Source: an uncultured Alphaproteobacteria bacterium
GTDB taxonomy: Bacteria > Pseudomonadota > Alphaproteobacteria > HIMB59
Direction: 5' to 3'
Assembly (NCBI GenBank): GCA_902522585.1
Contig: CABYWI010000006.1
Span: 1 to 37,705 of the forward strand
DNA length: 37,705 nt
Positions 11,020 through 31,335 of this stretch are shown piece by piece. The notes under the pieces are model-generated. The model had not been told where the DNA came from and made no database searches. It saw only the letters and a list, made by a program, of their open reading frames with translations. Each line of letters opens with the position of its first letter. Within the stretch, counting starts at the first letter, position 1. A program made the translations under genes and the position numbers.

Positions 11020-11435
11020 TGATGAAAAATATTATTGTACCCTTAACTAGCGGTATCATTTTTGGAATTGGGCTTGTGATTGCTGGGATGACTAATCCCA
11101 CTAAAGTAATGGGTTTTTTTAATATATTTGGAAACTGGGATCCATCACTGATCTTTGTGATGGTTGGCGCGATTGCTGTTAGTATGCCTGTTTTCTTATT
11201 ATTAAGTAAAAAAATGTCAGCCCCACTTTTTAATAAGGAGGGAGGATTTAACCAGCAATTAAATAAAAATATCGATAGTCCTTTAATCTTTGGTTCATCA
11301 ATTTTTGGAATTGGATGGGCACTGGTTGGATTTTGTCCAGGTCCTGCTATCTCTGCACTTACTCAAGTTGATGGCAATGTCTTTATCTTTTTTATTGCTA
11401 TGTCCATTGGCATGCTAATCAAAAAAAGATTTTAA
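11019..11435 (+). CDS. YeeE/YedE-family membrane protein (C-terminal half type)
   Basis: GIGLVIAGMTNPTKVMGFFNIFGNWDPSLIFVMVGAI, FGIGWALVGFCPGPAI. TAATG overlap with the upstream half; the longer ORF from 10950 is out-of-frame extension. Confidence 0.85.
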   Translation: MMKNIIVPLTSGIIFGIGLVIAGMTNPTKVMGFFNIFGNWDPSLIFVMVGAIAVSMPVFLLLSKKMSAPLFNKEGGFNQQLNKNIDSPLIFGSSIFGIGWALVGFCPGPAISALTQVDGNVFIFFIAMSIGMLIKKRF

Positions 11436-12421
11436 ATTTGATTAATTCGTTCAAGTAGCTGGTCAGTAATTTCAATATCTTGATTTTGGTTTTGCTGAAA
11501 AGCTGCTTGTCGCTTAGAGCCGGGTAATCTCGCACCCTCTTGTTCTGTGATTGAGTTTATTAGAGAATTTAATGACTCTTTGTAAGTAGGATTAAATTTT
11601 TCTGGATCAATAGCTATAAAGAATTGTCCTGTGCTTGGAGGGCCTCCATCTTCGCCCGCAAAAGAAGATGCTTGGGTTCCTAAATTTCCACCAGCAATAC
11701 AAGCAGTAAAAATTTCAACAAGTAAACCAGTTCCAAAACCTTTATACCCGCCGCTTGGTGCCATAGTTCCTTTGAGAGCTGCTTGAGCATCAGTTGTTGT
11801 ACGGCCCTCACTATCGAAAGCCCATCCCTCTGGTATAGGCTCTCCTGTTTTAGCTCTGACAGAAATTTCACTTTTGGCTACTACGCTTGCTGATTGATCT
11901 ATAATAATTTCAGCTCTTCCATCGAAAGGAACAGCTAGAGAAAAAGGATTGGTACCTACAACAGGTTTAACTCCGCCCAAAGGAGCAATGGAGGCTGGAG
12001 CATTAGTGAATCCAAGACCGATAAAACCCTTTTCCGCAATTCGCTTAGTATGAAAACCTAAAACCCCACAATTGTAAGAATTGTAAACTGACATACATGA
12101 AATAGCCTCTTTAGAGCACATTTCGAAAAATAAAGGGAGTCCTTTATTAATAGCACTATGAGCAAAGCCATTATCTGAGTTAACTTTGAGAGCAGAATTG
12201 GATAATTTTTCAAATGACGAGTTAGCTTTTCCTTTTATTTTTCCAATTTTCAGATGATTGCAGTAAATTGGCAAATAATGGAAACCGTGACTTTTAATCC
12301 CACTAAATTCTGCATCTAGTATTCCATCGATAATTCCATGTGTATTATCCTCAGAACAGCCTGATTTTATTAACTTTTCTTGAGCTAATTTATATGCTGT
12401 TGATTTGTCGAAATTTGGCAC
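11432..12421 (-). CDS. Ldh2-family malate/L-lactate dehydrogenase-like oxidoreductase
   Basis: SHGFHYLPIYCNHLKIG, GFTNAPASIAPLGGVKPVVGTNPFSLAVP, SGGYKGFGTGLLVEIFTACIAGG. Confidence 0.9.
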   Translation of the reverse strand: MPNFDKSTAYKLAQEKLIKSGCSEDNTHGIIDGILDAEFSGIKSHGFHYLPIYCNHLKIGKIKGKANSSFEKLSNSALKVNSDNGFAHSAINKGLPLFFEMCSKEAISCMSVYNSYNCGVLGFHTKRIAEKGFIGLGFTNAPASIAPLGGVKPVVGTNPFSLAVPFDGRAEIIIDQSASVVAKSEISVRAKTGEPIPEGWAFDSEGRTTTDAQAALKGTMAPSGGYKGFGTGLLVEIFTACIAGGNLGTQASSFAGEDGGPPSTGQFFIAIDPEKFNPTYKESLNSLINSITEQEGARLPGSKRQAAFQQNQNQDIEITDQLLERINQI

Positions 12422-12580
12422 ATCAGAATTAGATAACTTTTTTTGAGCTATTCAAGGAAAATCATAAAATTACTCAAAAAAAAATCCCATAAATAATTTG
12501 CATGATAAAAGCGTAAATGATTAACTAAACTTCTTAAGACTAATAAATATTTATTAATTATAAATGAGGAGAAAACAAAT

Positions 12581-13588
12581 ATGACATATTTGAGAAATAT
12601 ATTCTTCACAGTGCTTCTAGCTTTAGGCTTTAGTTCAATTACAACTACTGCCTCTGCTTGCTCGCTTACAGTTGCTAATATGAACTGGGCGTCAGCAAAT
12701 CTTATGGCAGAAGTTGATAAATTCATTTTAGAAAATGGATTTGGTTGTGAAGTTGAATTAGTAGAAGGTGCAACTATGCCTACTTTTACAAGTATGGCTG
12801 AAAAAGGTGAACCAGACGTAGCTCCAGAATTTTGGGCAAACGCTGCTCTAGTGCCTTTACAAGCTGCTGAAGCAGAAGGTACAATAGTATCTCTTAACAA
12901 AGCCCCTATTACAGGTCTTGGTGAGGGATGGTGGATTCCACCTGCAACTTTAGAAGCTCACCCAGAGTTAACATCTGCTGAAGCTATTTTAGCAAGACCA
13001 GATTTATTTCCACACCCTGAAGACTCATCAAAAGGAGCTTTTGTAGGTTGTCCAGCTGGTTGGGGTTGCCAATTAATCAATGCTCAACAATATAAAGGTT
13101 GGGACATGGAAGCAAAAGGATGGCTCTTAGTTGATCCTGGTTCTGCTGCAGGTCTTGATGGTTCAATGGCAAAAGCTGTTGAGAGAGGTGAGAACTGGTT
13201 TGGTTATTATTGGTCTCCAACTTCTATGATCGGAAAATATAACATGGTTTCTGTTGATATGGGAGAATGGGGTGGAGATGATAACTGGCACAACTGTGTT
13301 GTTAAGCCTGAGCAAGAGTGTGGCGATCCAAAGCCAACTTCATGGATTAAATCAGAAGTGTACACAATCGCATCATCAAATTTCGTAGAACAAGCTGGTC
13401 AAGACGGTATTTTCTATCTTAGAAGTCGTACATGGCCTGGTCCTGTTATGAACTCAATGTTAGTTTACATGGCAGACAACCAAGCTGAAGGTTCTGATGC
13501 AGCAATTGAATTCTTACTACAACATGAAGATGTGTGGAAAGATTGGGTTGGTGCAGATATGAGAATTAAAATTAAGAACGCCCTATAA
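12581..13588 (+). CDS. Glycine betaine/proline-type ABC transporter substrate-binding protein
   Basis: Signal peptide then NMNWASANLMAEVDKFILENGFGCEVELVEG, PDVAPEFWAN (OpuAC fold). Aromatic-rich sequence around the ligand site. Confidence 0.9.
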   Translation: MTYLRNIFFTVLLALGFSSITTTASACSLTVANMNWASANLMAEVDKFILENGFGCEVELVEGATMPTFTSMAEKGEPDVAPEFWANAALVPLQAAEAEGTIVSLNKAPITGLGEGWWIPPATLEAHPELTSAEAILARPDLFPHPEDSSKGAFVGCPAGWGCQLINAQQYKGWDMEAKGWLLVDPGSAAGLDGSMAKAVERGENWFGYYWSPTSMIGKYNMVSVDMGEWGGDDNWHNCVVKPEQECGDPKPTSWIKSEVYTIASSNFVEQAGQDGIFYLRSRTWPGPVMNSMLVYMADNQAEGSDAAIEFLLQHEDVWKDWVGADMRIKIKNAL

Positions 13589-13609
13589 TTTCTTAATTTT
13601 TAAAAATTT

Positions 13610-13639
13610 ATCGAACCCGTGTTTAACGGGTTCGATTTT
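13610..13639 (+). terminator. Hairpin between SBP and permease (attenuator-like terminator)
   Basis: ATCGAACCCG-tgtttaa-CGGGTTCGAT followed by TTT; perfect 10-bp stem. Confidence 0.7.
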
Positions 13640-13672
13640 CAAATAAAAAAGAATTAAAATAGATATAAAAAT

Positions 13673-14560
13673 ATGAGTTTTTTTAATGAAATCCCAGAAA
13701 TGGGCAGAGAGTCACTTCGTGACTTGAAAAAAGGTATAGATTTAAATTTCAAAGAATTTTCAAGAAGTTATGGAGATGGTATAGAGAATTTTTTTGATCC
13801 CCTACTTATGTTCTTAGTATGGTTAGAAAAATTACTTGTTAATTCACCCTGGCCATTGGTTATATTAGTTTTAGCAGGCTTGGCATGGATTGGTTCTAGG
13901 AACTTGAAGCTTGTTGCAGGAACAATAGTGTCCTTTATGGTTATAGGTTATTTTGGTATGTGGGAAGATACAATGTCCACCATAGCAATTATTTCAGTAG
14001 CTACCCTAGTTTGTATAGTTGTAGGAATTCCTCTGGGAATTTTAATGTCAAGATCTAGGAAAATTGAAGCGGGAATAACTCCTATATTAGATGTCATGCA
14101 AACTGTCCCTAGTTTTGTTTACCTTATACCTATTATTATGTTATTGGGTATTGGAAAAGTTCCAGGATTAATAGCTGTATGTATTTATGCAATTCCACCT
14201 ATTGTTCGTCTAACGAATTTAGGCATCAGAGAGGTAGACAAAGAATGTCTTGAAGCTGTTGATTCATTTGGCGCTACTAGCTGGCAGAGATTAACAAGAG
14301 TTCAAATGCCTTTAGCTTTACCAACTATATTTGCAGGTGTTAATCAAACAATAATGATGGCTCTTGCAATGGTTGTAATAGCCTCGATGATTGGTGTCAA
14401 AGGCTTAGGGGTTCCGGTTCTGAGAGCAGTGTCAAATCAATACTTAGCGCTAGGTATGTTAAATGGATTGGCCATCGTTGCTCTTGCAATTATTTTTGAT
14501 CGTGTCTCACAACAATATGGAAAAAGACTGCAGAAACATAGAGAAGGAAGAAATTTATGA
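13673..14560 (+). CDS. proW: Glycine betaine/proline-type ABC permease (ProW/OpuAB)
   Basis: GIPLGILMSRSRKIEAGITPILDVMQTVPSFVYLIPIIMLLGIGKVPGLIAVCIYAIPPIVRLTNLGIREV. Confidence 0.92.
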   Translation: MSFFNEIPEMGRESLRDLKKGIDLNFKEFSRSYGDGIENFFDPLLMFLVWLEKLLVNSPWPLVILVLAGLAWIGSRNLKLVAGTIVSFMVIGYFGMWEDTMSTIAIISVATLVCIVVGIPLGILMSRSRKIEAGITPILDVMQTVPSFVYLIPIIMLLGIGKVPGLIAVCIYAIPPIVRLTNLGIREVDKECLEAVDSFGATSWQRLTRVQMPLALPTIFAGVNQTIMMALAMVVIASMIGVKGLGVPVLRAVSNQYLALGMLNGLAIVALAIIFDRVSQQYGKRLQKHREGRNL

Positions 14561-15579
14561 GTGATATAAAAATTAAAATTGATTCACTCTATAAAATCTT
14601 TGGGAAAAATCCTAAAGAGGCCCTTGAGCATGTTAAACAAGGAGTTGGAAAAGATGAGCTTCTTGAAAAACACAATCATGTTTTAGGTTTAAGTGATATT
14701 AACATTGATATTGTTGATAAATCCATCCAAGTTATTATGGGATTATCTGGTTCAGGAAAATCCACTTTAATAAGACACATTAATAGACTAATTGAACCAA
14801 CGGCTGGAAATTTATTTGTTGAAGGCAGTGATGTGCTTAAATATGATGAAAATACCCTAAGAGAATTTAGAAGAACTAGAACCGCAATGGTTTTCCAAAG
14901 ATTTGCACTTATGCCTCATATGACTATCCTAAAAAATGTAAGTTTAGGATTAGAACTACAGGGCAAAGAAGAAGAAGAAATTAGAAATAGTGCAATGAAG
15001 TGGATAGAAAAAGTAGGTCTGAACGGCTATGAGGACAGATACCCTCAACATTTATCAGGTGGAATGCAACAAAGAGTTGGTCTGGCTAGGGCCCTTACAA
15101 ATGATACAGATATTCTTTTAATGGATGAGGCTTTTAGTGCATTAGACCCTCTAATTAGAAAAGATATGCAAGATATTTTGCTTAATTTACAAGAAGAACT
15201 TCATAAAACCGTTGTTTTTATTACTCATGACCTAGACGAAGCTTTAAAAATTGGAGACAGAATAGCAATCCTAAAAGATGGTATTATGGATCAAGAGGGT
15301 CTTCCCGTTGACATACTATTGAATCCAAAAACTGAATATGTCTCAAACTTTGTAGAGGATGTTAATAGATCTAGGGTTCTTAAAGCAAAACATATCATGA
15401 AAAAAGCAAATGGCACTGACCTTTCCAAAGGAATGCCTGTTAATGAAAATGACTTTATAGAGTCTTTCATCGATAAAGTTGTAGCTGAAAAGCCTGAATT
15501 TATTGTAGTCCAAGACTCAAATAAGAATAATATTGGTAGTTTAAGCACAAAAAGATTATCTGAAGTTTTAAAAAAATAA
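14557..15579 (+). CDS. proV: Glycine betaine/proline-type ABC ATPase (ProV/OpuAA)
   Basis: IVDKSIQVIMGLSGSGKSTLIRHINRLIEPTAG, LSGGMQQRVGLARAL, LLMDEAFSALDPLIRKDMQ. ATGA coupling with the permease. Confidence 0.93.
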   Translation: MSDIKIKIDSLYKIFGKNPKEALEHVKQGVGKDELLEKHNHVLGLSDINIDIVDKSIQVIMGLSGSGKSTLIRHINRLIEPTAGNLFVEGSDVLKYDENTLREFRRTRTAMVFQRFALMPHMTILKNVSLGLELQGKEEEEIRNSAMKWIEKVGLNGYEDRYPQHLSGGMQQRVGLARALTNDTDILLMDEAFSALDPLIRKDMQDILLNLQEELHKTVVFITHDLDEALKIGDRIAILKDGIMDQEGLPVDILLNPKTEYVSNFVEDVNRSRVLKAKHIMKKANGTDLSKGMPVNENDFIESFIDKVVAEKPEFIVVQDSNKNNIGSLSTKRLSEVLKK

Positions 15580-15588
15580 TTACTCTTT

Positions 15589-17040
15589 ATGTTTGGAAGG
15601 AAATCTAACTTCATCAATGGGAACTGGGTTGAAGGTGAAGGTGAGATAATTAATATAAACCCTTCTGATACAAATGATTTAATAGATAATAATTCTAACG
15701 CCACTTATGATCAATTAAACGATGCAATTAATGCCGCTCAGATAGCTCAAAGAAAATGGGAAGATGTTGGAATAGAAAAAAGAGCTAATATTTTGCACAA
15801 TATTGGAAGTGAGCTGATTAATCAGTCAAAAGAAATTGGCACTCTTTTATCAAGAGAAGAGGGTAAAACATTACCAGAAGGTATTGGGGAAGTTGTTAGA
15901 TCTGGTCAACAGTTTCAATACTACGCAGCGAGTGCTCTAAGACAATTTGGAGAAAACATTGCCTCTACTAGAGAAGGAGTATCAGTTGAATTAACCAGAG
16001 AGCCGATTGGAGTTTGTGGCATTATTTCTCCTTGGAATTTTCCAATTGCAATTGCTGCTTGGAAATCTGCACCTGCAATGGCTTTTGGAAATGCTATAGT
16101 TTTGAAACCAGCTTCTCAAACTCCTGCCAGTGCTATTGCCCTTACAAAAATTATAAGTGAACAAAAAGATATACCTGAAGGTTTATTTAACTTAGTTTTA
16201 GGTGGTGGTGGAACAATAGGCCATCAAATTTCAGAACATACAAATATTAACGCAATTAGTTTCACTGGTTCAGTTAACGTAGGACAAACTATTTACCAAG
16301 AAGCTGCAAAAACTATGAAGAAAATGCAGTTAGAAATGGGCTCTAAAAATCCACTATTAATAATGGATGATGCGGACTTAGAAATTGCTGTTACATGTGC
16401 AACTAATGGGGCTTACGGAGGAACAGGTCAAAAATGTACAGCTTCATCTAGATTAATTGTGCATGAAAAAGTTTATAAAGAATTTATTGAAAGATTAATA
16501 AATAGTATTAGTGCCTTGAAAGTTGGTCATGCTTTAAAAGAAGATTCACAAATGGGTCCTGTATCGAGTGAGAGTCAATTAAAGTCAAATCTTGATTATG
16601 TAGAGAAGGGGAAAAATGAGGCTAAACTTGCCTATGGTGGGAATATTATCAACTTGGATACGCCAGGATATTATATGGAGCCTACCCTTTTCATTGATGG
16701 TGATAATAAATCAACGATCAATCAAGAAGAAATGTTTGGTCCTATAGCTTGCGTCATTCCTGTAAAATCATATGAAGAGGGGCTCGAAGTATCAAATGAT
16801 ACAATATTTGGTCTATCTAGTGGGATCATTACTCAATCCCTTAGTATGGCTGCTGATTTTAAAAAAAATATTAAAACTGGAGTAACTACTGTCAATCTTC
16901 CTACTGCAGGATTAGATTATCACGTACCTTTTGGGGGACGTAAGGCCTCTTCTTTTGGCCCAAGAGAACAAGGAACATACGCACATGAGTTTTTTACTCA
17001 AGTTAAAACAACTTATGTAAACCCTGGCAAAATTAAGTGA
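15589..17040 (+). CDS. NAD(P)-dependent aldehyde dehydrogenase
   Basis: ALDH motifs GVCGIISPWNFPIAIAAWKSAPAMAFGNAIVLKPASQTPASA, FTGSVNVG, LEMGSKNPLLIMDDADL, GGTGQKCTASSRLIV. Confidence 0.92.
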   Translation: MFGRKSNFINGNWVEGEGEIININPSDTNDLIDNNSNATYDQLNDAINAAQIAQRKWEDVGIEKRANILHNIGSELINQSKEIGTLLSREEGKTLPEGIGEVVRSGQQFQYYAASALRQFGENIASTREGVSVELTREPIGVCGIISPWNFPIAIAAWKSAPAMAFGNAIVLKPASQTPASAIALTKIISEQKDIPEGLFNLVLGGGGTIGHQISEHTNINAISFTGSVNVGQTIYQEAAKTMKKMQLEMGSKNPLLIMDDADLEIAVTCATNGAYGGTGQKCTASSRLIVHEKVYKEFIERLINSISALKVGHALKEDSQMGPVSSESQLKSNLDYVEKGKNEAKLAYGGNIINLDTPGYYMEPTLFIDGDNKSTINQEEMFGPIACVIPVKSYEEGLEVSNDTIFGLSSGIITQSLSMAADFKKNIKTGVTTVNLPTAGLDYHVPFGGRKASSFGPREQGTYAHEFFTQVKTTYVNPGKIK

Positions 17041-18005
17041 ACTATAAAATAGACAATTTACAATATTGTAATTGGTCTAAAGAAATCTTTGAAATTAATC
17101 GTGAAGCAAATCTTGACGCTGTCCATGCAACTATTTGTTATCATGAGGATTATGACGAACTGCAAATTAATATTGATTTATGGAAAAAATATTTTGAAAA
17201 TTATTCTTCTTTAATTTTTCAAGGATTTAACTCTAAAGATATAGAAAGAGCCAAACAAGAAAATAAAACAGCAATTTTTTTTGGCCTACAAAATTGTTCT
17301 CCCATTGAGGATAATATTGAATATGTAGAAGTATTAAAAAAACAAGGTGTTCTTTTTATGCAGCTCACTTATAACAATCAATCTCTGTTGGCAACAGGTT
17401 GTTATGAAGAGAAAGATGCTGGTATTACGAGAATGGGAAGAGAAGTTATTAAAGAAATGAATAGGGTGAAGATGATTATTGATATGTCTCACTCAGCTGA
17501 ACTATCAACTCTTGAAGCTATAGAAATTTCTCAAGAACCGATTGTAGTTAGCCATGCCAATCCATCTTTTTGGCATAAAGGATTAAGAAATAAATCAGAC
17601 ACAATCTTAAAAGAATTAAATAATTCTGGAGGTATGATTGGTTTCTCTATTTATCCTCATCACCTCAAAGGTGCATCGGAATGTACTCTCGACTCTTTTT
17701 GTGAAATGGTAGCAGAAACTACTAAAAAAATATCAGTCAAACAAATAGGCATTGGCTCGGATCTTTGCATTCGACATCCTGATAGTATTGTGGAGTGGAT
17801 GCGAAATGGAACATGGACTAAAACAAAAGATTTTGGAGAAGGTAGCTCTAATAATCCAGGCTTTCCTCCTCAACCCTCCTGGTTTGAGGACGCTAGAGGG
17901 TTTAGCAATTTAGACAGAGGTTTGAGAAAAGTTGGTTTTAATGAAGAAGAGACTCGCGACATATTAGGAAATAATTGGTACAATTTTTATCGAAAGTTTG
18001 ATTAA
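17037..18005 (+). CDS. Peptidase M19 (membrane/renal dipeptidase)-like protein, variant N-terminus
   Basis: MIIDMSHSAELSTLEAIEISQEPIVVSHANP, RNKSDTILKELNNSGGMIGFSIYP, IGIGSDLC. Start region reads IDNLQYCNWS instead of the canonical DGHxD. GTG start overlapping the ALDH stop. Confidence 0.85.
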   Translation: MNYKIDNLQYCNWSKEIFEINREANLDAVHATICYHEDYDELQINIDLWKKYFENYSSLIFQGFNSKDIERAKQENKTAIFFGLQNCSPIEDNIEYVEVLKKQGVLFMQLTYNNQSLLATGCYEEKDAGITRMGREVIKEMNRVKMIIDMSHSAELSTLEAIEISQEPIVVSHANPSFWHKGLRNKSDTILKELNNSGGMIGFSIYPHHLKGASECTLDSFCEMVAETTKKISVKQIGIGSDLCIRHPDSIVEWMRNGTWTKTKDFGEGSSNNPGFPPQPSWFEDARGFSNLDRGLRKVGFNEEETRDILGNNWYNFYRKFD

Positions 18006-19660
18006 TGCAAATAGATTTAAGAAAACCTGAATTTATAATGAAACTGGATCGACTAGGTTCTTTTCATCAGTCAAAGTTGTCTTTTTTAAGAAGTTTTATT
18101 AGAGAATTTCAAGACTGGAAATTTGAAACACATGAAATTGTTCTTGATGAAAAAGGTTTCGGTCATTGTGTTTATGTTGTTAGCAAAGACAACAAAAGAT
18201 ACTCTTTAATTTGCTTTTCTAATGAATTAGATGATAGTGAGCGTTCGGATAGAGTAATCGCCACAAAATGGGATGCTTCTTTTGTACTATTTGATGGAGT
18301 TCCTATGACAAAGGATATTCAACGCTTAAAAAAGAATGTTCCTTTACAAGAACAAGGAAGAGTCACAGAAAAAGAATTATGTCTTTCCAGAGCTAACAAA
18401 TCAGTTCGTATATTTGAACATGTTGTAGATTTACTTTCTCAAGGTAAACAACCAGATACAAAACTCTTATATGATGTAGGTTATCTTTATCGCACAACTG
18501 CCGTCTATGGCTCAGGTAAATTTGGTCTTGCAGATCGAATTAAAATTCAAGATCGTGGTGAACTGAAAGGCCCATTTCGTCTTGAGATGATGTTAGTTTT
18601 CTTAGCTCGTCAATTTACTTTTGATATGGTTAACCATGTAGCCAAAATGCGATCTCCTAAATCAGCTGTAAAGTTAAATGATGATATAGCACGTAATTTA
18701 GGAATAGGTAATTCAACAGGTTTAGGAATGGCGCCTTTTATTGTCAATCATCCTGCTTTACTTAACCAATGGATATTATCTAAAGAAAAAGCCTTGCAAG
18801 CTATCCGCTCTATACCTGTAATATCTGAACAAGAAAAAGAAAAATTTCAATCTCTTCTATCAACTATTCAAGAAAATATTAAGCTTTGGAAAACAGATAG
18901 TGATTATCAAATCAAAAAAAATTCTCAATTAATACATGATTTAAAAAATTTTCAAAAATATTTTACCCAAATGAATTTAGAGAAATTTTTTTGGAATGCT
19001 GTATATGAATGGACAGAGAAAAATACGCAAGCTGAGTGCTGTGAATTTATAGTCTCTCTTTTAATGGAAATTTATCCAGAAATTGTTGAACCATTAAGCT
19101 ATGAAATGTCTATAGATGAAGAAGATTATTTTGATTTTGACTCATCTCGATCAATTGGAGATGTTTGTGCTTTAATTGAAAAAAGATATGCTTGGTTGAT
19201 TGATATAGATTTTGAAAAGAAAAATAATATTTATAACTTCTGGTATTACTCTAAAAATAAACAAGAGCCTAGAATGTCTGATCGATTTAATGAAGATGGC
19301 GCTGAACTTGAACTCCCTCTCGCAATCGCAAGAGATATAAATAAATTATACCTGGAACTTAAAAACTACTCTGAGAAAGATCAACTTTCATCATATCTTT
19401 TTAAAAATCAAGAATTTCGACATGTTTTAAGGCGAATTTTTATATGTGAAAAGCTTCCCTACTCAGAAATTCAGGATAATACAATTTCTAAATCATTAAT
19501 GCCTGTTGATATGCTTCGCTTGAAGTTGTCATTTTTTGGAGCAACTCGCTTTGACCCTAGATCAGATAGATGGGTGCGAATAACTATGTATCAAGGTGCG
19601 CCTCTAATGAAAGAAATTCATCAATCTGATGATACTTGGTCTTATAAAAAGATTGCCTAA
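18005..19660 (+). CDS. Uncharacterised 551-aa conserved-looking protein
   Basis: Long intact ORF coupled by TAATG to both neighbours; no domain recognised by eye. Confidence 0.85.
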   Translation: MQIDLRKPEFIMKLDRLGSFHQSKLSFLRSFIREFQDWKFETHEIVLDEKGFGHCVYVVSKDNKRYSLICFSNELDDSERSDRVIATKWDASFVLFDGVPMTKDIQRLKKNVPLQEQGRVTEKELCLSRANKSVRIFEHVVDLLSQGKQPDTKLLYDVGYLYRTTAVYGSGKFGLADRIKIQDRGELKGPFRLEMMLVFLARQFTFDMVNHVAKMRSPKSAVKLNDDIARNLGIGNSTGLGMAPFIVNHPALLNQWILSKEKALQAIRSIPVISEQEKEKFQSLLSTIQENIKLWKTDSDYQIKKNSQLIHDLKNFQKYFTQMNLEKFFWNAVYEWTEKNTQAECCEFIVSLLMEIYPEIVEPLSYEMSIDEEDYFDFDSSRSIGDVCALIEKRYAWLIDIDFEKKNNIYNFWYYSKNKQEPRMSDRFNEDGAELELPLAIARDINKLYLELKNYSEKDQLSSYLFKNQEFRHVLRRIFICEKLPYSEIQDNTISKSLMPVDMLRLKLSFFGATRFDPRSDRWVRITMYQGAPLMKEIHQSDDTWSYKKIA

Positions 19661-20256
19661 TGCATTCTCTTTATGAAATTGAGACTACTGTAAAAAGAGT
19701 TGCCCGTCATCAAGGCTTAAGTTGGGGTATTGCTGAAGAGGCAGGAAAAATTGTCCGCTCATTAGAACAGTCTGAATTACCAGGTCTTGAAAGTTTTAAT
19801 CGTTTAATAAGCTTCCCTTATAATAAATGTGAAACCGTTATTGATCTTACTAAAAATAATCATAAGAATTTATGTCCTATTCATTTTAGCTTATTTTTTT
19901 TAGATCAATCACATGCCACTGATTTACATCAATCTTTTAAATTTTTAAATATGCAAGAACCCCTTTTAGCTATTCCCTTATTAATTAAAGCGGCACAGAA
20001 GAATTTAATTAGTTTTGAATTTACCTCTACTGAGCTTAAATTCCTTATTAGCTCAGGAAATATTATGATATTGGATAAAAATCAAATCCCCCATCAATCT
20101 AACAACATCACCATGAAAATCTCTAATAAACGTCAACCACAATATTCTGAAGAAACATGGGATCGATTATACGAACTTTCATTAGAGACTTTTGTCGAAG
20201 AAAGTGAAGAAAAGAAACTCTCGGGCGCCGGTGCAGGGCTCACAGATAACGATTAA
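19660..20256 (+). CDS. DUF3726-like protein
   Basis: IETTVKRVARHQGLSWGIAEEAGKIVRSLEQSELPG resembles the DUF3726 N-terminus. C-terminus SGAGAGLTDND. Confidence 0.72.
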   Translation: MHSLYEIETTVKRVARHQGLSWGIAEEAGKIVRSLEQSELPGLESFNRLISFPYNKCETVIDLTKNNHKNLCPIHFSLFFLDQSHATDLHQSFKFLNMQEPLLAIPLLIKAAQKNLISFEFTSTELKFLISSGNIMILDKNQIPHQSNNITMKISNKRQPQYSEETWDRLYELSLETFVEESEEKKLSGAGAGLTDND

Positions 20257-20315: not shown

Positions 20316-21422
20316 ATGAACTCAACTATTGCAAAAAGTGCTAGATTAAGATCTACCCCCTTCACTCAAAGAATTGAAGAATATGGGGTTCAATCTTATA
20401 CTGTTTACAATCATATGCTCCTCCCTGCATCATTTCATGGAGCTATTGATGATTACAATCATCTCAAAGAAAATGTGCAAGTTTGGGATGTTTCTGTTGA
20501 AAGACAGGTTCAAATTAAAGGTCCTGATGCAGATTATTTAACTCAACTCATTACTTGTCGAGACTTATCTAATGCGAAAGATCATCTTTGCTATTACGCA
20601 CCCATTGTGGATGATCAGGGTAAAATTTTAAATGATCCTTTAATCATGAAAGTTCATCCTGATACGTGGTGGGTTTCAATCGCTGATACTGATATTCTTC
20701 TTTATGCTAAAGGTATTGCGATCGGAAAAAATTTAGATGTAGAGATAACTGAACCCAATGTGAATCCATTGGCTGTTCAAGGACCAAAATCCTTTGAATT
20801 GATGAGACGTGTTTTTGGAGAAGAAATTTTAAATTTAAAGTTTTTTCATTTTAAAAGATATAATTTTCAAGACCATCAATTTTTAATTGCTAGATCTGGT
20901 TGGTCAAAGCAAGGAGGATTTGAAATATATGTGGACCATGATGAAATTGGTTTGCAGCTTTTTGACAAATTAATTGAAAAAGGAAAAGATTTAAAAGTTC
21001 GACCAGGATGCCCTAATTTAATTGAGCGTATTGAGTCAGGCTTACTGTCATATGGAAATGATATGGATATGAATGATACTCCATTAGAGTGCAACTTGGA
21101 TAGCTTTGTAAGTTTCAATCCTGACATTGAATATTTGGGTAAAGCCGCTCTTCAAAAACAAAAAGATCAGGGGGTATCTCGATCATTAATTGGACTAGTA
21201 CTGGATTTGGATGAAATTTCTGTGACCCAATACATTCCAATTAAAAAAGATGGGCATTTGATCGGCTCATTAAGATCTGCCTGTTATAGTCCAGAATTTA
21301 ACAAATGTTTGGGTATTGCCATGGTTGATAAATCATATCAAAGCCTTGAACAAAATTTATCTTTAGAAATCAATGGCAATGAAATCAGTGCCAAAATGAC
21401 AAATCTGCCATTCCAAAAATAG
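20316..21422 (+). CDS. Aminomethyltransferase (GcvT)-fold methyltransferase, DMSP demethylase DmdA-like
   Basis: LRSTPFT...YTVYNHMLLPASF, VQVWDVSVERQVQIKGPDA, CYYAPIVDDQGKILNDPLIMKV, WWVSIADTDI, NPLAVQGPKS, ARSGWSKQGGFEIYV, RPGCPNLIERIESGLLSYGND, as recalled for DmdA-type sequences. Confidence 0.8.
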   Translation: MNSTIAKSARLRSTPFTQRIEEYGVQSYTVYNHMLLPASFHGAIDDYNHLKENVQVWDVSVERQVQIKGPDADYLTQLITCRDLSNAKDHLCYYAPIVDDQGKILNDPLIMKVHPDTWWVSIADTDILLYAKGIAIGKNLDVEITEPNVNPLAVQGPKSFELMRRVFGEEILNLKFFHFKRYNFQDHQFLIARSGWSKQGGFEIYVDHDEIGLQLFDKLIEKGKDLKVRPGCPNLIERIESGLLSYGNDMDMNDTPLECNLDSFVSFNPDIEYLGKAALQKQKDQGVSRSLIGLVLDLDEISVTQYIPIKKDGHLIGSLRSACYSPEFNKCLGIAMVDKSYQSLEQNLSLEINGNEISAKMTNLPFQK

Positions 21423-21460
21423 ATATTGCATTCCAATTTTAAAGGTTTAACTAAGCCCTA

Positions 21461-22732
21461 ATGATTGGAACGATATTAAATTCTTGGGCGCTATTTAGTG
21501 GTTTCGGGTTAATTATGTTAGCTCATGCCCTACAAGGCACATTGCTAAATATCAATGCGGTGCTCTATGATTTTTCAGATTTTGAAATCGGGTATACATT
21601 TACTGGCTATTTTATTGGCTTCCTATTTAGCTCTATTCAATGTCCTAAACTTATTAAAAATGTTGGTCATATAAGGGTATTTGCTGCTTTTGCCTCTCTT
21701 GGATCAATAGCTATTCTTCTTCATTGGGTAATTGTTCATCCAGTAGCGTGGTTGGGTTTTCGAATGATTACTGGTTTTTCATTTGCAGCAATTTATATCG
21801 TTTGTGAAAGTTGGCTTAATGATCGAGCTGACAACAATTCTAGAGGGCAATTGATTGGTTTTTATATGATTGTTCTTTATGTTTCAAACGCTGGAGGGGT
21901 GATGTTGATAAATTTAAAGACTACTACTGAAGCACATCTTTACATTTTAACATCCTTATTAATTTCAATAGCTTTAATACCTATCTTGTTAACTAAAAAA
22001 CCAGCTCCAGAATTTACAACACCAAAATTTTTATCTCTAAAAGAACTTTATAAAAAATCACCAATGGCATTTGTTGGGTCATTTGCTATTGGGATGATAT
22101 ACTCTGCATTATTTGGATTGTTAGCAGTTTTTGGAGCTAAAATTGGACTAAGTGTTTTTCAAATCTCAATCTTAGTTTTTGTGAACGTCTTAGTCGGGGC
22201 TATTTTCCAATATCCTGTTGGGAAAATTTCAGACAAATATGATCGAAGAACAATTTTATTTGTTTTAAATCTTATCGCTATTGCTTCTTTAATTTTTGCA
22301 TTTTTATTTGGGTCGCTTTCCTTTTATACGCTGATTTTATTTATTGGAATTCACTCTGCGGTATCTCTTCCTTATTATGCTGTGGTGATTTCCCATATGA
22401 ATGACTTCCTTGAAAAAGAAGAAATTGTCTCAGCTAGCTCAACTTTGACTCTGGTTAATGCTCTTGGGATGGTCACAGGTCCCTTACTAGCTTCTGGGTT
22501 TATGGCCTACTTTGGAGCTTATGGATATTTTATTTATATGATCGTTATATATTCAATAGTTGCTCCTTATAACTTTGCTCGTATTCGTGTTGGTCGAACA
22601 AGTGATATTTATGATGACAACACCCCATCTATGATAGTTCCAAGAACCGCTTCTCCTATTGGAATGCAGTTGGCAACTGATCAAATTATAAATAAGATTG
22701 AGGAAGAAGAGGAAAAATCTAATGACCTTTGA
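21461..22732 (+). CDS. MFS transporter, YcaD-like
   Basis: FRMITGFSFAAIYIVCESWLNDRADNNSRGQLIGFYMIVLYVSNAGG, VLVGAIFQYPVGKISDKYDRRTILFVL. Confidence 0.85.
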   Translation: MIGTILNSWALFSGFGLIMLAHALQGTLLNINAVLYDFSDFEIGYTFTGYFIGFLFSSIQCPKLIKNVGHIRVFAAFASLGSIAILLHWVIVHPVAWLGFRMITGFSFAAIYIVCESWLNDRADNNSRGQLIGFYMIVLYVSNAGGVMLINLKTTTEAHLYILTSLLISIALIPILLTKKPAPEFTTPKFLSLKELYKKSPMAFVGSFAIGMIYSALFGLLAVFGAKIGLSVFQISILVFVNVLVGAIFQYPVGKISDKYDRRTILFVLNLIAIASLIFAFLFGSLSFYTLILFIGIHSAVSLPYYAVVISHMNDFLEKEEIVSASSTLTLVNALGMVTGPLLASGFMAYFGAYGYFIYMIVIYSIVAPYNFARIRVGRTSDIYDDNTPSMIVPRTASPIGMQLATDQIINKIEEEEEKSNDL

Positions 22733-23183
22733 ACATAATATAGAAAAATTAGGCTTAAAACTTCCTACCCCAGCTAAACCAGCTGGGAGCTATAAACCTT
22801 GTGTTATTGTGGATAATCTAGCATATATTTCAGGCCAAGGTCCTTTGATGGAAGATGGGACTTTTGCTCAAGGGGTAGTAGGAAAAGATTTAGACCTTGA
22901 GACCGCACAAAATCATGCACAAAAATGTGGTCTTGCTATATTAGCGGCCCTAAAAAATGAAATTGGCGATTTAAACAAAGTTACACAATTAGTAAAACTC
23001 ACTGGATTTGTTAATTGTACGATTGACTTTACCCAACAGCCTTTAGTCATAAATGGTTGCTCTGATCTAATGAAAAATTTATTCGGTGAAAAAGGAGTCC
23101 ATGCTCGTGCAGCGGTAGGGGTAAATTCTCTTCCACTTGGGTTTTCTGTCGAAATTGAAGCCATCTTTCAAATTCAACGTTAA
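22722..23183 (+). CDS. RidA/YjgF-family protein
   Basis: DNLAYISGQGPLMEDGTFAQGVVGKDLDLETAQNHAQKCGLAILAALK, RAAVGVNSLPLGFSVEIEAIFQI. ATG at 22722 preferred over 22698; 11-nt overlap with the MFS gene. Confidence 0.9.
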   Translation: MTFEHNIEKLGLKLPTPAKPAGSYKPCVIVDNLAYISGQGPLMEDGTFAQGVVGKDLDLETAQNHAQKCGLAILAALKNEIGDLNKVTQLVKLTGFVNCTIDFTQQPLVINGCSDLMKNLFGEKGVHARAAVGVNSLPLGFSVEIEAIFQIQR

Positions 23184-23191
23184 TTTCTCGA

Positions 23192-23220
23192 TTGACAACT
23201 AAATTGTTTTAGCAAAATAT
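23192..23220 (+). promoter_or_regulatory. Possible internal promoter upstream of the dioxygenase
   Basis: Perfect TTGACA at 23192-23197, 17-nt spacer, weak AAATAT at 23215-23220. Confidence 0.3.
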
Positions 23221-23251
23221 CTTTATAGGAATATATTTTGAGGGTGGTGCC

Positions 23252-24358
23252 ATGAAGGTTCAATTTCAAAACAACTCACTAAACGTGAGTCATCTAAATA
23301 AATCTTACCAATTACATCCTGTTTGGCTTCGAGAGCGCTTACCAGGTGAAGAGTATTTTGATGTTGATACTCATCAACGTCTTTATGAACCCTCCTCAAT
23401 TGATTTAAATCTTCAAATTACATCGGCGATACTTTCTGATCATTTATTAAACATTGAGTTTAACGATGGTGTTAAAGGTTCATATAATATGGAAGATCTC
23501 CTTATGGAAATGGATGATCAAAAAAATAAAAAAGGACCTTTGCCTGACAGGGTTTTATGGAACTCTTCTTTAAATTCATTTCCTGAAGCTCAATTTGAGG
23601 AAGAAATGTCTGAAAAAAAATCTATGTATGATCTCTTAATTGATTTTTATAAATATGGATTTGTAATCATTAAAAATGTTCCTACAGAGGATAAGTATCT
23701 TCTCAAGTTTGTAAATTCAATTGGACCTGTCAAAATAACAAACTTTGGTGAATATTTTGATGTAATGTCTAAACCTAACCCCAATGATTTAGCCTATAAG
23801 CCGATTGCACTACCTCCACATACTGACAATCCATATCGAAAACCTACTGCTCCAGGCATTCAATTTTTGCATTGCCTTCAAAATGAGGTAAGTGGTGGTT
23901 TTTCAACTCTTGTTGATGGTTTTGCCGTAGCTGAGCATATCAAAATACATGACCCTGAAGCATTCCAATCACTCACAACAACAAACCTTCGGTATCAGTT
24001 TCGAGATAAAGATATTGTCTTAGAAAACTGGGGTGAATTAATTGAGCTTGACGAAGATGGAGATTACAAACAAGTTCGATATAGCACTCGAGTTGATTAT
24101 GTACCCCCTTTAGATAGTGAAAAACTTAGTACTTTTTATCGTTCTCGAAAGTTATTGAGTGAACTTTATTCTGCATCAGATTTTGAGCTAAAATTCAAAT
24201 TAAAGCCAGGAGATATTATGATGTTTGATAATCATCGTCTTCTTCATGGTCGAACTGCCTATGACTCCAATGAAGGTATGCGTCACCTTCAAGGATGTTA
24301 TTTAGAATTTGATGCTACTGATGGCAAGCTCCGCCACCTTGCTCGAAAGTTCAAGTAG
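23252..24358 (+). CDS. 2-oxoglutarate/Fe(II) dioxygenase, gamma-butyrobetaine hydroxylase (TauD/BBOX) family
   Basis: HPVWLRERLP, iron site LPPHTDNPYRKPTAPGIQFLHCL and DNHRLLHGRTAYD. Confidence 0.88.
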   Translation: MKVQFQNNSLNVSHLNKSYQLHPVWLRERLPGEEYFDVDTHQRLYEPSSIDLNLQITSAILSDHLLNIEFNDGVKGSYNMEDLLMEMDDQKNKKGPLPDRVLWNSSLNSFPEAQFEEEMSEKKSMYDLLIDFYKYGFVIIKNVPTEDKYLLKFVNSIGPVKITNFGEYFDVMSKPNPNDLAYKPIALPPHTDNPYRKPTAPGIQFLHCLQNEVSGGFSTLVDGFAVAEHIKIHDPEAFQSLTTTNLRYQFRDKDIVLENWGELIELDEDGDYKQVRYSTRVDYVPPLDSEKLSTFYRSRKLLSELYSASDFELKFKLKPGDIMMFDNHRLLHGRTAYDSNEGMRHLQGCYLEFDATDGKLRHLARKFK

Positions 24359-24365
24359 TTTTCAA

Positions 24366-25514
24366 ATGGCCGAGTTAGATATCATCTCGGCAGAGGTATT
24401 TGCATGTAAATCAAACGCACCTCAAATTATTTGGGCAAAAGACATGTCTCCAATGTTTGAGGCCAACATCATCGTCAAACTTATTACTGAATCTGGTGTA
24501 GAATGTGTGGGAGGAGTACTAATTCCAACAGAGCATTATTATGATCACTCTGTAGTCGAGTCCTGTCGAAATTTATTTCCTGAAATTCTAGGAAAAAATC
24601 TAGAACAACGATCTAAGCTAACTGAATTTATGTTAACTCGATGTGTTCCTTTAAATCCTCTAGCGGTGTCTTCTATTGATATAGCAATGTGGGACGGCTA
24701 TGCAAAGTCTTTACAAAAACCTCTTTGTGATATTCTGGGACGAAAAAGAGATAGCATAGCCTCTTATGCCTCTACTCCACTTTTTCATAGCATCGATGAG
24801 TATGTAGATTTTGTAAAAAATTTAGAAGCTGAATATTTCCATACTGTAAAGTTTCATACTTGGTGCGATGTTGAATTTGATCTTCAAATGGTCTCTAAAG
24901 TTTGTCCTCAATTTCCAAATATCAAATTTATGATTGATTGCGAACAGCGTTATAGCCGTAAAGATGCTCTGCTACTGGGCAAAAAATTAGATGAATTAAA
25001 TTTTATTTGGTTTGAAGCTCCTTTTAATGATTTTGATTGGGAGAGTTATCAATGGCTTCGACCGCAAATCCAAACACCTGTCATTGGCGCAGGAAACTCC
25101 ATTCTTAATCCCTTTCAAATTGAGCAATCTCTTAAATTAGATGTTTTTCATCATGCTCGAGTCGATTCTACCTATGTAGGTGGTATTACAAAAGTTTTGG
25201 AAGTGATGAAAATAGCTCAGAATTTCAATAAAAATGTCGAACTACAGTCATGGTCATACCCCCTAGGACAAGCAGCAAATTTACATATAATGCTTAGCCA
25301 CGATAATTGTGATTATTTTGAACAAGTCGTTCCCTTTGAAGGCCATGAACATGGAGCGAAAACCTTCATCAGAACCAATCAGAAGGGTGAAGTGACAGCA
25401 AACCCTGATTTTGGCCTTGGTATAGAAATAGACTGGGATGTTATAAATAGTGATTGGTACTCCTATCTAAAATTAGATCCAAACGGACTTAAGTCAGAAA
25501 TCCGATCAATCTAG
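24366..25514 (+). CDS. Enolase-superfamily (mandelate racemase/muconate lactonizing-like) protein with atypical active site
   Basis: LNPLAVSSIDIAMWDGYAKSLQKPLCDILGRKRDSIASYAS, MIDCEQ, WFEAPF, VDSTYVGGITKVLEVMKIA. ATG at 24366 chosen because the listed upstream start overlaps the dioxygenase. Confidence 0.85.
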   Translation: MAELDIISAEVFACKSNAPQIIWAKDMSPMFEANIIVKLITESGVECVGGVLIPTEHYYDHSVVESCRNLFPEILGKNLEQRSKLTEFMLTRCVPLNPLAVSSIDIAMWDGYAKSLQKPLCDILGRKRDSIASYASTPLFHSIDEYVDFVKNLEAEYFHTVKFHTWCDVEFDLQMVSKVCPQFPNIKFMIDCEQRYSRKDALLLGKKLDELNFIWFEAPFNDFDWESYQWLRPQIQTPVIGAGNSILNPFQIEQSLKLDVFHHARVDSTYVGGITKVLEVMKIAQNFNKNVELQSWSYPLGQAANLHIMLSHDNCDYFEQVVPFEGHEHGAKTFIRTNQKGEVTANPDFGLGIEIDWDVINSDWYSYLKLDPNGLKSEIRSI

Positions 25515-28732: not shown

Positions 28733-29881
28733 TTAAACCCTAAATAATAAGTTACTTAAATCTTTAATATCTTCATTCCAAAAAACATCATATTTAATAC
28801 GATCAAACTCCACATCGAAAACAGCAGACATCGCAGACGCATAAACAGATCTAGAGTCAATGGTGCTCTGTAAATCACGCCCTTGAAATAAGTTACTCTT
28901 TTTTAATCCAGGCCAATCTGTAAATACTTGAGATTTTTTTAATAAGCCCCCTGCCATTAAAATTGCTGAACCATAACCATGTTCTGTCCCATTACCTCCA
29001 TTTTGTTCAACGGTTCTGCCAAATTCTGTTAGTGTAAGTATTAGAGTATTTTCAAAATCACTACCCATACCAGCATGGAGGTTTTTGATAATTAAATCCA
29101 CATCTTGAAGGTTTTCAGCATGTTCTCCGTTATCTGTTCCCTGAGCTGTGTGTGTGTCAAAGCCCTCTAAATCAAATACAGCTACTTTTGGACCAAGTGG
29201 GTCCTTCAATATTTTAGCAGTTCTTTTGGAAAGACTCTCTAGTGACTCATCTCCTCCTTGCATTGTAAGAGGTCTGTTCATGATCACATTATATACTTCT
29301 TGTAGTTTATCCTGCTCAACCCCATCATAGGCCCTCGTTATTCTCTCAATAATTTCTCTTTTTGGAAGAGACATCCAAGTTGGGAAATAATTGTTATTTT
29401 TTTCTACTCCTCTTAATAAAAGAGGCATTGGTAAACTTAATGCTAGACTAGATCCATAAAGTCCTGCAGATTTCATTCCTCTTCCTAGCCATCCTGTTTT
29501 TTCGGTATAAGCTTTGAGTGCTCCTGTTTCCATAATATTTTGTCCATCAAAATGAGATCTTTCAGTATAAGGGATATTTGTTGCGTGAACGACAGAAGCT
29601 AAATTTTGAGACCATAAGATGTGAAGTGTTTTTAATTTTGGATGTAGTGAAAAATCTGAGTTAAGTTTTAGTTTATTTTTTAAGATCAGATCAGATCGAT
29701 ATTTGCCTATAAGACTATCGTTTACAGGAACAGCAGTTAATCCATCCATACCTCCACGAAGACTGATAATGACAATATTTTTTTTTGGGTTTTGAATAGA
29801 CCCATAGAGAGGAACATTGAAGTTTGAAAAGAAAATAGTAGCTAAACTACCCTTAAGAAAACTTCTTCTTGTGCAATTCAT
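28733..29881 (-). CDS. DUF1501 protein with Tat signal
   Basis: CTRRSFLKGSLATIF, ISLRGGMDGLTAVPVND, VFDLEGFDTHTAQGTDNGEHAENLQ, TLTEFGRTVEQNGGNGTEHGYGSAILMAGG. Confidence 0.92.
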   Translation of the reverse strand: MNCTRRSFLKGSLATIFFSNFNVPLYGSIQNPKKNIVIISLRGGMDGLTAVPVNDSLIGKYRSDLILKNKLKLNSDFSLHPKLKTLHILWSQNLASVVHATNIPYTERSHFDGQNIMETGALKAYTEKTGWLGRGMKSAGLYGSSLALSLPMPLLLRGVEKNNNYFPTWMSLPKREIIERITRAYDGVEQDKLQEVYNVIMNRPLTMQGGDESLESLSKRTAKILKDPLGPKVAVFDLEGFDTHTAQGTDNGEHAENLQDVDLIIKNLHAGMGSDFENTLILTLTEFGRTVEQNGGNGTEHGYGSAILMAGGLLKKSQVFTDWPGLKKSNLFQGRDLQSTIDSRSVYASAMSAVFDVEFDRIKYDVFWNEDIKDLSNLLFRV

Positions 29882-31335
29882 GCTCTCATCACCTCAGGGC
29901 TATTAGCAAATACAGCAAATCGATCAGCGCTAAATTTAGTCTCTTTTATGAGCTTTAATAAATTTTCTGGATGATCAAAATTTTTTTCAATTATATTTAC
30001 AAAATAATCTTGATTATAACTAACGTTAGGGTTTGCAATGTCATCCCATCTTCGGGCAGCCGCTAGTCTGCGAATAATCAATTCGGGTGATAGCCATTCG
30101 TCCTCTAAATCAATATAACCATTTGGTTGTTTAGCTCGATAAATCGGGTGACCAATTTCCCATAAAATATTTTTCACCAATTTTTGCGATCTATTTGGAT
30201 TTGATCCATTGAATTCAAAGCCTTTTGGATACTTATATAAATAATTTAAATCTAATATTTTTGCATTCTGTAATAGCCATAATTCAGGCATTGAAAATTT
30301 TTTTTGATTGAGTCCAAACTGGAATACCGTTTTCATAGTTGCTTTATGAATTTCAATTAAATTTCCGTCATTTTTCTCCCATGCTTTGACGATATTTGCA
30401 ATCATCTCATCTTTTGGATTGTCACAGATAAAATGCTGACAAAGTTTTTTTGCTACATGCTTTCGAGTAGAGGGATGGTTGGCTAGGTCCTTAATAACAA
30501 CCTTTAACTCTTTTCCTTTATTGACTGTATTGAAGTCTTTGATGTTATAAACTTTTCCTAAAATTTTATAAGGCCCTTGCTCATGATATTCAGGCTGAAA
30601 TTTAATGGGACCTGCTTCTAATTTCTTTTCACTCCACAAATGACGCCAACCCGTCATTACTTTTGCCATCTCGACAACATCCTCTTGAGTATAATTTGCT
30701 TCAGGTGATAAAGTATGAAGCTCAAGCAACTCTCTTGCATGATTTTCATTAAGGCCTACTTTTCGCTTGTTATTATCAGAATTTTCTCTTACTCCCTCTT
30801 TAGAGTTTGGTCCAATATTCTCTGCATTATCTAAATGATGAAGCATGCACCAAGAAGTTGTGACTGAATAAACTAAATCCTCAAAAGTATTAACCATATT
30901 AGGACGAATAACTTCTCTTTGATAAACACCAGTAGAAAAACTGGCTAAAAAATCTTTTTCACTAATAGCAAAAAAATTTCCCCAGAAATGCCACATCCTC
31001 TCAAATGCTGGTGAGCTTGAGGTAAGAGCTGTGGTGTGCCTTACAGATAGCTCCAAGGACTCAAAAAATTTCTCACCTGTAATCTTTCTGAGATGGTCTT
31101 TTTCCTTTTCATAAGCTAATCGATCATTTTTATGTTTTTCTCTTAGAACTTCTCTGTCCTGATAAACCCAATGGCCATATCTATCTCTTTGCTCATCTAG
31201 AGTTGGTAATTTTTTCTCCCAAACAAAATCAGGAACTGTATCAAATTGATTTTGAGCCCAAACTAATGGATCGCTAGGGATACTTTCTTCCACTCCGATT
31301 CCGAAAGCGACTTTTCTAAAATAATCCCTATTCAT
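29878..31335 (-). CDS. DUF1800 protein
   Basis: RMWHFWGNFFAIS, GLNENHARELLELHTLSPEANYTQEDVVEMAKVMTGWR, HPSTRKHVAKKLCQHFICDNP. 4-nt overlap with DUF1501. Confidence 0.92.
   Translation of the reverse strand: MNRDYFRKVAFGIGVEESIPSDPLVWAQNQFDTVPDFVWEKKLPTLDEQRDRYGHWVYQDREVLREKHKNDRLAYEKEKDHLRKITGEKFFESLELSVRHTTALTSSSPAFERMWHFWGNFFAISEKDFLASFSTGVYQREVIRPNMVNTFEDLVYSVTTSWCMLHHLDNAENIGPNSKEGVRENSDNNKRKVGLNENHARELLELHTLSPEANYTQEDVVEMAKVMTGWRHLWSEKKLEAGPIKFQPEYHEQGPYKILGKVYNIKDFNTVNKGKELKVVIKDLANHPSTRKHVAKKLCQHFICDNPKDEMIANIVKAWEKNDGNLIEIHKATMKTVFQFGLNQKKFSMPELWLLQNAKILDLNYLYKYPKGFEFNGSNPNRSQKLVKNILWEIGHPIYRAKQPNGYIDLEDEWLSPELIIRRLAAARRWDDIANPNVSYNQDYFVNIIEKNFDHPENLLKLIKETKFSADRFAVFANSPEVMRA

Follow-up and report, generated by a model that had tools for sequence, protein, structure and literature searches.

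A near-obligate pairing of a 551-residue protein family with DUF3726 in a SAR11 gene cassette, with homarine as a candidate substrate

The locus and the pairing of 551 with DUF3726

The DNA analysed here (contig CABYWI010000006.1; hereafter the window) is a stretch of 37,705 nucleotides from a fragmented metagenome-assembled genome (MAG) of 863 kb. It contains an eight-gene cassette that ends in two overlapping open reading frames, both on the plus strand and both with ATG starts: one encodes a 551-aa protein of an undescribed family (18005-19660; hereafter 551) and the other a 198-aa DUF3726 protein (19660-20256). Its nearest named relative is a MAG of Pelagibacteraceae (87% identity over the 551-aa protein), and the window comes from SAR11 (Pelagibacterales). 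The preceding gene encodes an M19-type hydrolase of the kind annotated as 'membrane dipeptidase' (17037-18005, plus strand; PF01244, 230.7 bits, above the cut-off). TAATG stop/start junctions connect M19 to 551 (18003-18007) and 551 to DUF3726 (19658-19662). The 198-aa protein is a member of PF12525 (E = 1.2e-14; 54.4 bits against a cut-off of 22.1), an entry for which Pfam gives no function, and a literature search on 'DUF3726' found no paper. As a single sequence, 551 matches no Pfam or NCBIfam family, and profiles built from 17 and then 60 members have no usable match in Pfam, NCBIfam or the PDB. In all these respects the preliminary description of the locus stands: it had noted a 1-nt overlap at both junctions, likened the partner to DUF3726 and recognised no domain in the 551-aa product.

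The pairing of 551 with DUF3726 is close to obligate. In a sample of 288 genomes of Alphaproteobacteria, almost all with a completeness of 85% or more, the 551 family is present in 41 and DUF3726 in 34; all 34 lie within the 41 (Fisher p ~1e-37), and every DUF3726 match adjoins a 551 match. In a comparison set of 78 loci with a 551-family gene, a DUF3726 profile built here finds a match beside 551 in 77. In most of the 78 the next frame begins within the end of 551, the overlap with the stop being 4 nt (47 loci) or 1 nt (nine loci). Mesorhizobium sp. 131-2-1 has a natural fusion of the two, 814 aa in length (DUF3726 part, E = 8.8e-45). Elsewhere, a distant 868-aa relative of 551 (L085) bears a weakly DUF3726-like C-terminal extension; this protein probably carries a diverged DUF3726 part, possibly from an independent fusion.

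Because near-obligate co-occurrence, overlap in most lineages and the Mesorhizobium fusion coincide, it is well supported that 551 and DUF3726 act as one stoichiometric unit within the surrounding pathway. Such a unit had been proposed from the window, with a lack of co-occurrence named as the finding that would speak against it; DUF3726 is accompanied by 551 in 34 of 34 genomes. That the pairing is an operon accident, with each protein acting independently, is very improbable: SAR11 genomes are streamlined and overlaps of 1-4 nt are frequent between unrelated operon genes, but the co-occurrence is obligate over the 288 genomes, the 551/DUF3726 adjacency persists while the remaining neighbourhood changes, and the fusion in Mesorhizobium is joined by the probable one at L085.

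Homologues of 551 are spread over Alpha- and other Pseudomonadota. Scans of viral contigs yield no relative, and a scan of genome contigs yields one (L002). Over the 78 members, 57 positions spread along the whole protein are at least 95% conserved; the near-invariant residues include many arginines, W89, W413, Y160, Y414, D90, E347, E355 and E421, a pattern that would fit an enzyme acting on an anionic substrate or binding an anionic cofactor. Two apparent similarities of 551 were discarded. One, with an outer membrane protein in the PDB (E = 0.0099), is a coiled-coil match that faded to 0.43 in the larger profile; the other, with the DUF3726 profile, arises from the fused L013 protein inside the alignment.

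The DUF3726 and M19 families

Profile comparisons make DUF3726 a shortened relative of the Ldh_2 family (PF02615), to which malate/L-lactate dehydrogenase, DpkA and ureidoglycolate dehydrogenase belong. In a profile-profile comparison (hhalign) with the neighbouring Ldh_2 family, DUF3726 aligns with 83% probability over 123 collinear columns (P = 9e-6, score 44.4); all other neighbour families score at most 18.5, and the top score of 60 column-shuffled or reversed control profiles is 18.9. Non-alphaproteobacterial DUF3726 proteins match PF02615 directly (L116, 41.4 bits; L118, 36.2 bits; L121, 35.9 bits), L116 alone of the three exceeding the cut-off of 38.8 bits, and the window copy has no direct Pfam match to Ldh_2. 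The relation is N-terminal, as these matches cover positions 1 to 135-137 of the 333 in the PF02615 profile, and weak matches also pair the Ldh C-terminal helix with the C-terminal part of DUF3726.

There are differences, however, between DUF3726 and Ldh_2. The DUF3726 proteins are shorter by ~120 residues (median length 214 aa vs 338 aa in Ldh) and do not have the full NAD(P)-binding region. The SHG tripeptide, which contains the catalytic His, is found in only 2 of 50 DUF3726 proteins vs 23 of 25 Ldh proteins. Conservation is seen in the DUF3726 tail (consensus SRxxGAGAGLxDND) and is lacking in the middle part; the 198-aa copy ends in GAGAGLTDND. In contrast to the Ldh enzyme encoded nearby, DUF3726 itself probably does not act as a dehydrogenase, and in going from relatedness to role we infer an Ldh_2-derived subunit whose catalytic function has been lost.

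The third constant element is the hydrolase. Since an M19-type gene, usually the immediate neighbour, occurs no more than ~5.5 kb away from 551 in 71 of the 78 loci, a trio of M19, 551 and DUF3726 describes the unit better than two proteins do. The M19 partners share their fold family with the M19 dipeptidases, among them renal dipeptidase (PDB 1itq), and with PDB 2i5g ('amidohydrolase'), and they retain the His pair of the second half, the Arg and the catalytic Asp. However, the canonical binuclear zinc ligands of M19 dipeptidases (HxD and a bridging Glu) are not found in the product of 17037-18005. In all 69 of the 69 partners examined, two of the ligands are replaced, the HxD Asp by Thr and the bridging Glu, as seen in the alignment with PDB 3id7, by Gln. 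The residues concerned, T32 and Q85, are invariant in the same 69 proteins; from the alignments and the known residues of renal dipeptidase, we take them to be metal-ligand positions.

Gene neighbourhoods in SAR11 and other bacteria

The cassette in the window (11432-20256) has the order Ldh, OpuAC, permease, ATPase, ALDH, M19, 551, DUF3726. The Ldh_2-family oxidoreductase gene (11432-12421, minus strand; PF02615, 300.9 bits) is divergent from the operon, whose remaining genes are all on the plus strand. These start with an ATP-binding cassette (ABC) transporter, consisting of a substrate-binding protein of the OpuAC type (12581-13588; PF04069, 153.9 bits), a permease of the ProW/ChoW type (13673-14560; Pfam and NCBIfam matches) and an ATPase of the betaine/proline/choline (ProV) type (14557-15579; TIGR01186, 352 bits against a cut-off of 326.6). 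The aldehyde dehydrogenase (ALDH) gene comes next (15589-17040); the NCBIfam models closest to its product, 2,5-dioxovalerate and alpha-ketoglutaric semialdehyde dehydrogenase, score below their cut-offs. Between the OpuAC and permease genes lies an eleven-pair GC-rich hairpin (13610-13636), found by pattern match only, which is likely to act in processing or attenuation behind the gene for the binding protein.

By comparison of the site with loci L149-L153, 11432-20256 is an exchangeable cassette at a fixed SAR11 site, because four SAR11 genomes without 551 have, between the corresponding flanks, only an OpuATP-OpuAC-permease transporter, in changed order and at 45 to 73% identity. The flanks carry SbmA, GNAT and a hexapeptide protein on one side, and DmdA, MFS and a BBOX-type dioxygenase on the other. 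The Ldh gene goes with 551 in SAR11, being present in 18 of 18 551-positive vs 3 of 34 551-negative SAR11 genomes (p = 3e-11). The genes of 20316-25514, considered as further members of the unit, were rejected, as DmdA, MFS, the BBOX-type dioxygenase and MR/MLE occupy the same place in 551-negative SAR11. This region encodes DmdA (above the NCBIfam cut-off), MFS, a RidA-like protein, a BBOX/TmpA-like dioxygenase and MR/MLE, and is conserved with and without the cassette. Further along the window, DUF1501 and DUF1800 genes, a recurring gene pair, stand side by side on the minus strand (28733-31335).

In Rhodobacterales, Hyphomicrobiales, Roseateles and others, a fuller cluster is found, with the order LysR (divergent)-ALDH-M19-(BCCT)-551-DUF3726-Ldh, sometimes followed by OpuAC-type ABC genes; six conserved genes were found in it. 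The Ldh orthologues, which in many other bacteria lie directly downstream of DUF3726, are 45-47% identical to the window Ldh in Rhodobacterales and Hyphomicrobiales. In the SAR11 window no LysR gene adjoins the cluster. ALDH belongs to the same cluster in 36 of the 78 loci, and these differ from the 42 others in LysR (19/36 vs 1/42) and in BCCT (22/36 vs 0/42). ALDH-positive clusters were considered as a single clade and rejected as such, since the presence of ALDH would have had to change 11 times over the tree. Ldh is not nearby in 50 of the 78 loci.

The companions of the core vary further. In Sinorhizobium and Neorhizobium they are polyamine-type ABC, aminotransferase and RidA genes, and in L137 and L138 trimethylamine-methyltransferase-like and FAD-oxidoreductase genes. 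Several genomes have two copies of the core, and in at least two of them (G189 and G276) one copy is accompanied by ALDH and the other is not. In Roseobacteraceae (L080, L083, L139-L144), a second M19-551-DUF3726 paralogue, free of ALDH, has conserved neighbours of its own (clusters c4, c5, c7 and c8). Since the trio also occurs without ALDH, with other companions and as a second genome copy, it forms a module open to reuse, and its substrates need not be limited to homarine, which is considered below.

The cluster is adjoined by soxBDAG (sarcosine-oxidase-like) operons and a GlxA/GbdR-like regulator in Ruegeria TM1040, Aliiroseovarius and Roseateles, the last of which also holds purU and folD nearby. 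The genes of N-methylglutamate dehydrogenase (mgd) are usually annotated as soxBDAG-like; in L011, L017, L020 and L127, soxBDAG operons, which may be of either the mgd or the sarcosine oxidase kind, are contiguous with the cluster. The links to RidA and to Mgd were counted and are too rare to carry weight.

A candidate pathway and its alternatives

The transporter types, ALDH, Ldh and the nearby sox/mgd-like operons point to an N-methylated, betaine-like substrate that would end as an N-methyl amino acid. The ALDH is closest to dehydrogenases of C5 2-oxo semialdehydes, and the Ldh matches PDB 1wtj, described as a delta1-piperideine-2-carboxylate reductase. We favour, with slightly less than even confidence, a reading in which 551 and DUF3726 are the two obligate subunits of one enzyme, acting together with the non-canonical M19 hydrolase, in a cassette that imports and degrades such a compound, likeliest homarine (N-methylpicolinate). 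Homarine by itself is a reasonably probable substrate, whereas ring opening as the step of 551 and DUF3726 is possible rather than probable.

The trigonelline pathway TgnABCDE (Perchat 2018, cited in PMC8269262) proceeds by oxidative ring opening, through the flavin oxygenase system TgnA/TgnB, and then by ALDH and hydrolase steps. A flavin-monooxygenase domain of the TgnA/TgnB type was not found in 551 by Pfam, NCBIfam and PDB searches with the 60-member profile or with its members, and the cassette contains no flavin reductase. The logic of the scheme proposed here is similar to that of TgnABCDE, an N-methylpyridinium carboxylate being opened and its product passed to ALDH and a hydrolase. 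The enzyme that opens the trigonelline ring is unlikely to act on homarine (PMC8269262), and a different ring opener is thus needed. Leaving aside 551 and DUF3726, nothing recognisable as an oxygenase or as another ring-attacking enzyme is encoded in the cassette. Ring opening, tentatively assigned to the pair, is the only step without a protein, and they are the only proteins without a step.

In the proposed scheme, 551 and DUF3726 would convert homarine, O2 and 2H into N-formyl-N-methyl-dehydroglutamate semialdehyde, the pyridinium ring being opened such that C6 becomes the N-formyl group, and ALDH would oxidise the C5 aldehyde to the acid. The M19 hydrolase would then deformylate the N-formyl-N-methyl-dehydroamino acid to formate and 2-(methylimino)glutarate; renal dipeptidase, its relative, is a dehydropeptidase. 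The Ldh-type enzyme would reduce the N-methyl imine to N-methylglutamate, as delta1-piperideine-2-carboxylate reductase does with its substrate, and Mgd would demethylate the product to glutamate. Of the two subunits, 551 would be the catalytic one, and DUF3726, with the Ldh_2 fold minus most of the nucleotide-binding part, would serve for structure or substrate delivery, its GAGAG(x)xDND tail reaching into the partner.

The cassette probably corresponds to a homarine catabolic operon described in 2026 (Ferrer-Gonzalez et al., Nat Microbiol 11:1531, cited in PMC13390433), although the gene-by-gene identity is a lead only. That operon reportedly comprises six genes (homABCDER), has a LysR-type regulator and yields N-methylglutamate. 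Its gene number agrees with the six conserved genes of the fuller cluster, but in the SAR11 window no LysR gene adjoins and Ldh is divergent. It also resembles the present one in its occurrence in marine and other environmental bacteria and in its use of Mgd downstream; Mgd participates in homarine catabolism, and mgd adjoins an AraC-type regulator (PMC13390433). The preliminary description had called the 551/DUF3726 pair the most plausible undescribed component of the locus, which holds for its biochemistry, whereas the operon has probably been reported already.

Several observations weigh against assigning the pair to homarine ring opening. The 551 family has a single near-invariant histidine (H249) and zero conserved cysteines, which makes both a 2-His-1-carboxylate iron site and a cluster bound by cysteines less likely. 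Structure predictions from two-sequence alignments, with predicted local distance difference test (pLDDT) values of 33 and 41 for the two proteins, are unusable. The M19-551-DUF3726 core has no ALDH of the window type nearby in 42 of the 78 loci, and is therefore not specific to one pathway. In addition, soxA-like genes lie within ~12 kb in only 8 of the 78 loci and occur in every SAR11 genome, 551-positive or -negative, so that the link to Mgd is statistically weak.

The variety of neighbourhoods also gives room to another reading, in which the trio is a general module for other N-methylated or quaternary compounds (e.g. proline betaine, carnitine or trigonelline analogues) and the window cassette does not serve for homarine. 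The clearly different companions in Sinorhizobium/Neorhizobium and in L137/L138, the two-copy genomes, including the mixed pairs of G189 and G276, and the many betaines served by OpuAC and BCCT transporters are all in keeping with it. However, the arrangement of ALDH with LysR and with BCCT or OpuAC is distinct, as the counts of LysR and BCCT given above show, it adjoins sox/mgd-like operons in several bacteria, and marine homarine breakdown requires a route other than Tgn (PMC8269262); we consider this alternative rather unlikely. Somewhat more doubtful is the idea that 551 and DUF3726 do not attack the substrate first but perform another step, or support either the M19 hydrolase or the Ldh reductase by activation, assembly or channelling. 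M19 is indeed the most constant companion of the pair, a helper could matter to a hydrolase whose two canonical metal ligands are consistently replaced, and the fold origin that DUF3726 shares with the pathway reductase would suit docking or channelling. Against this, the 57 near-invariant residues of 551, with many Arg, W, Y, H and E, look catalytic rather than those of a scaffold, and DUF3726 cannot exist mainly to serve an Ldh that is so often not nearby.

It is conceivable, if on the doubtful side, that 551 and DUF3726 represent a new class of two-subunit enzymes that open N-methylpyridinium rings without a known cofactor-binding domain. The small subunit would derive from an Ldh-type dehydrogenase minus its nucleotide-binding region, and the product would be passed to a repurposed M19 hydrolase. 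Paralogous clusters may then act on other N-substituted rings, the same module being used in several pathways of marine and soil Pseudomonadota.

New here are the ancestry given to DUF3726 and the replaced metal ligands of the M19 partners; the 551 family, outside Pfam and NCBIfam, is shown to be the near-obligate partner of DUF3726. The recurrence of the M19-551-DUF3726 trio with varied accessory genes leads to predictions for other pathways. SAR11 bacteria rank among the most abundant cells of the ocean, and in a survey of marine particles homarine exceeded every other measured compound in abundance (PMC8269262). If it is true that the pair opens the homarine ring, a missing step in the turnover of carbon and nitrogen in the ocean would gain an enzyme with testable parts.

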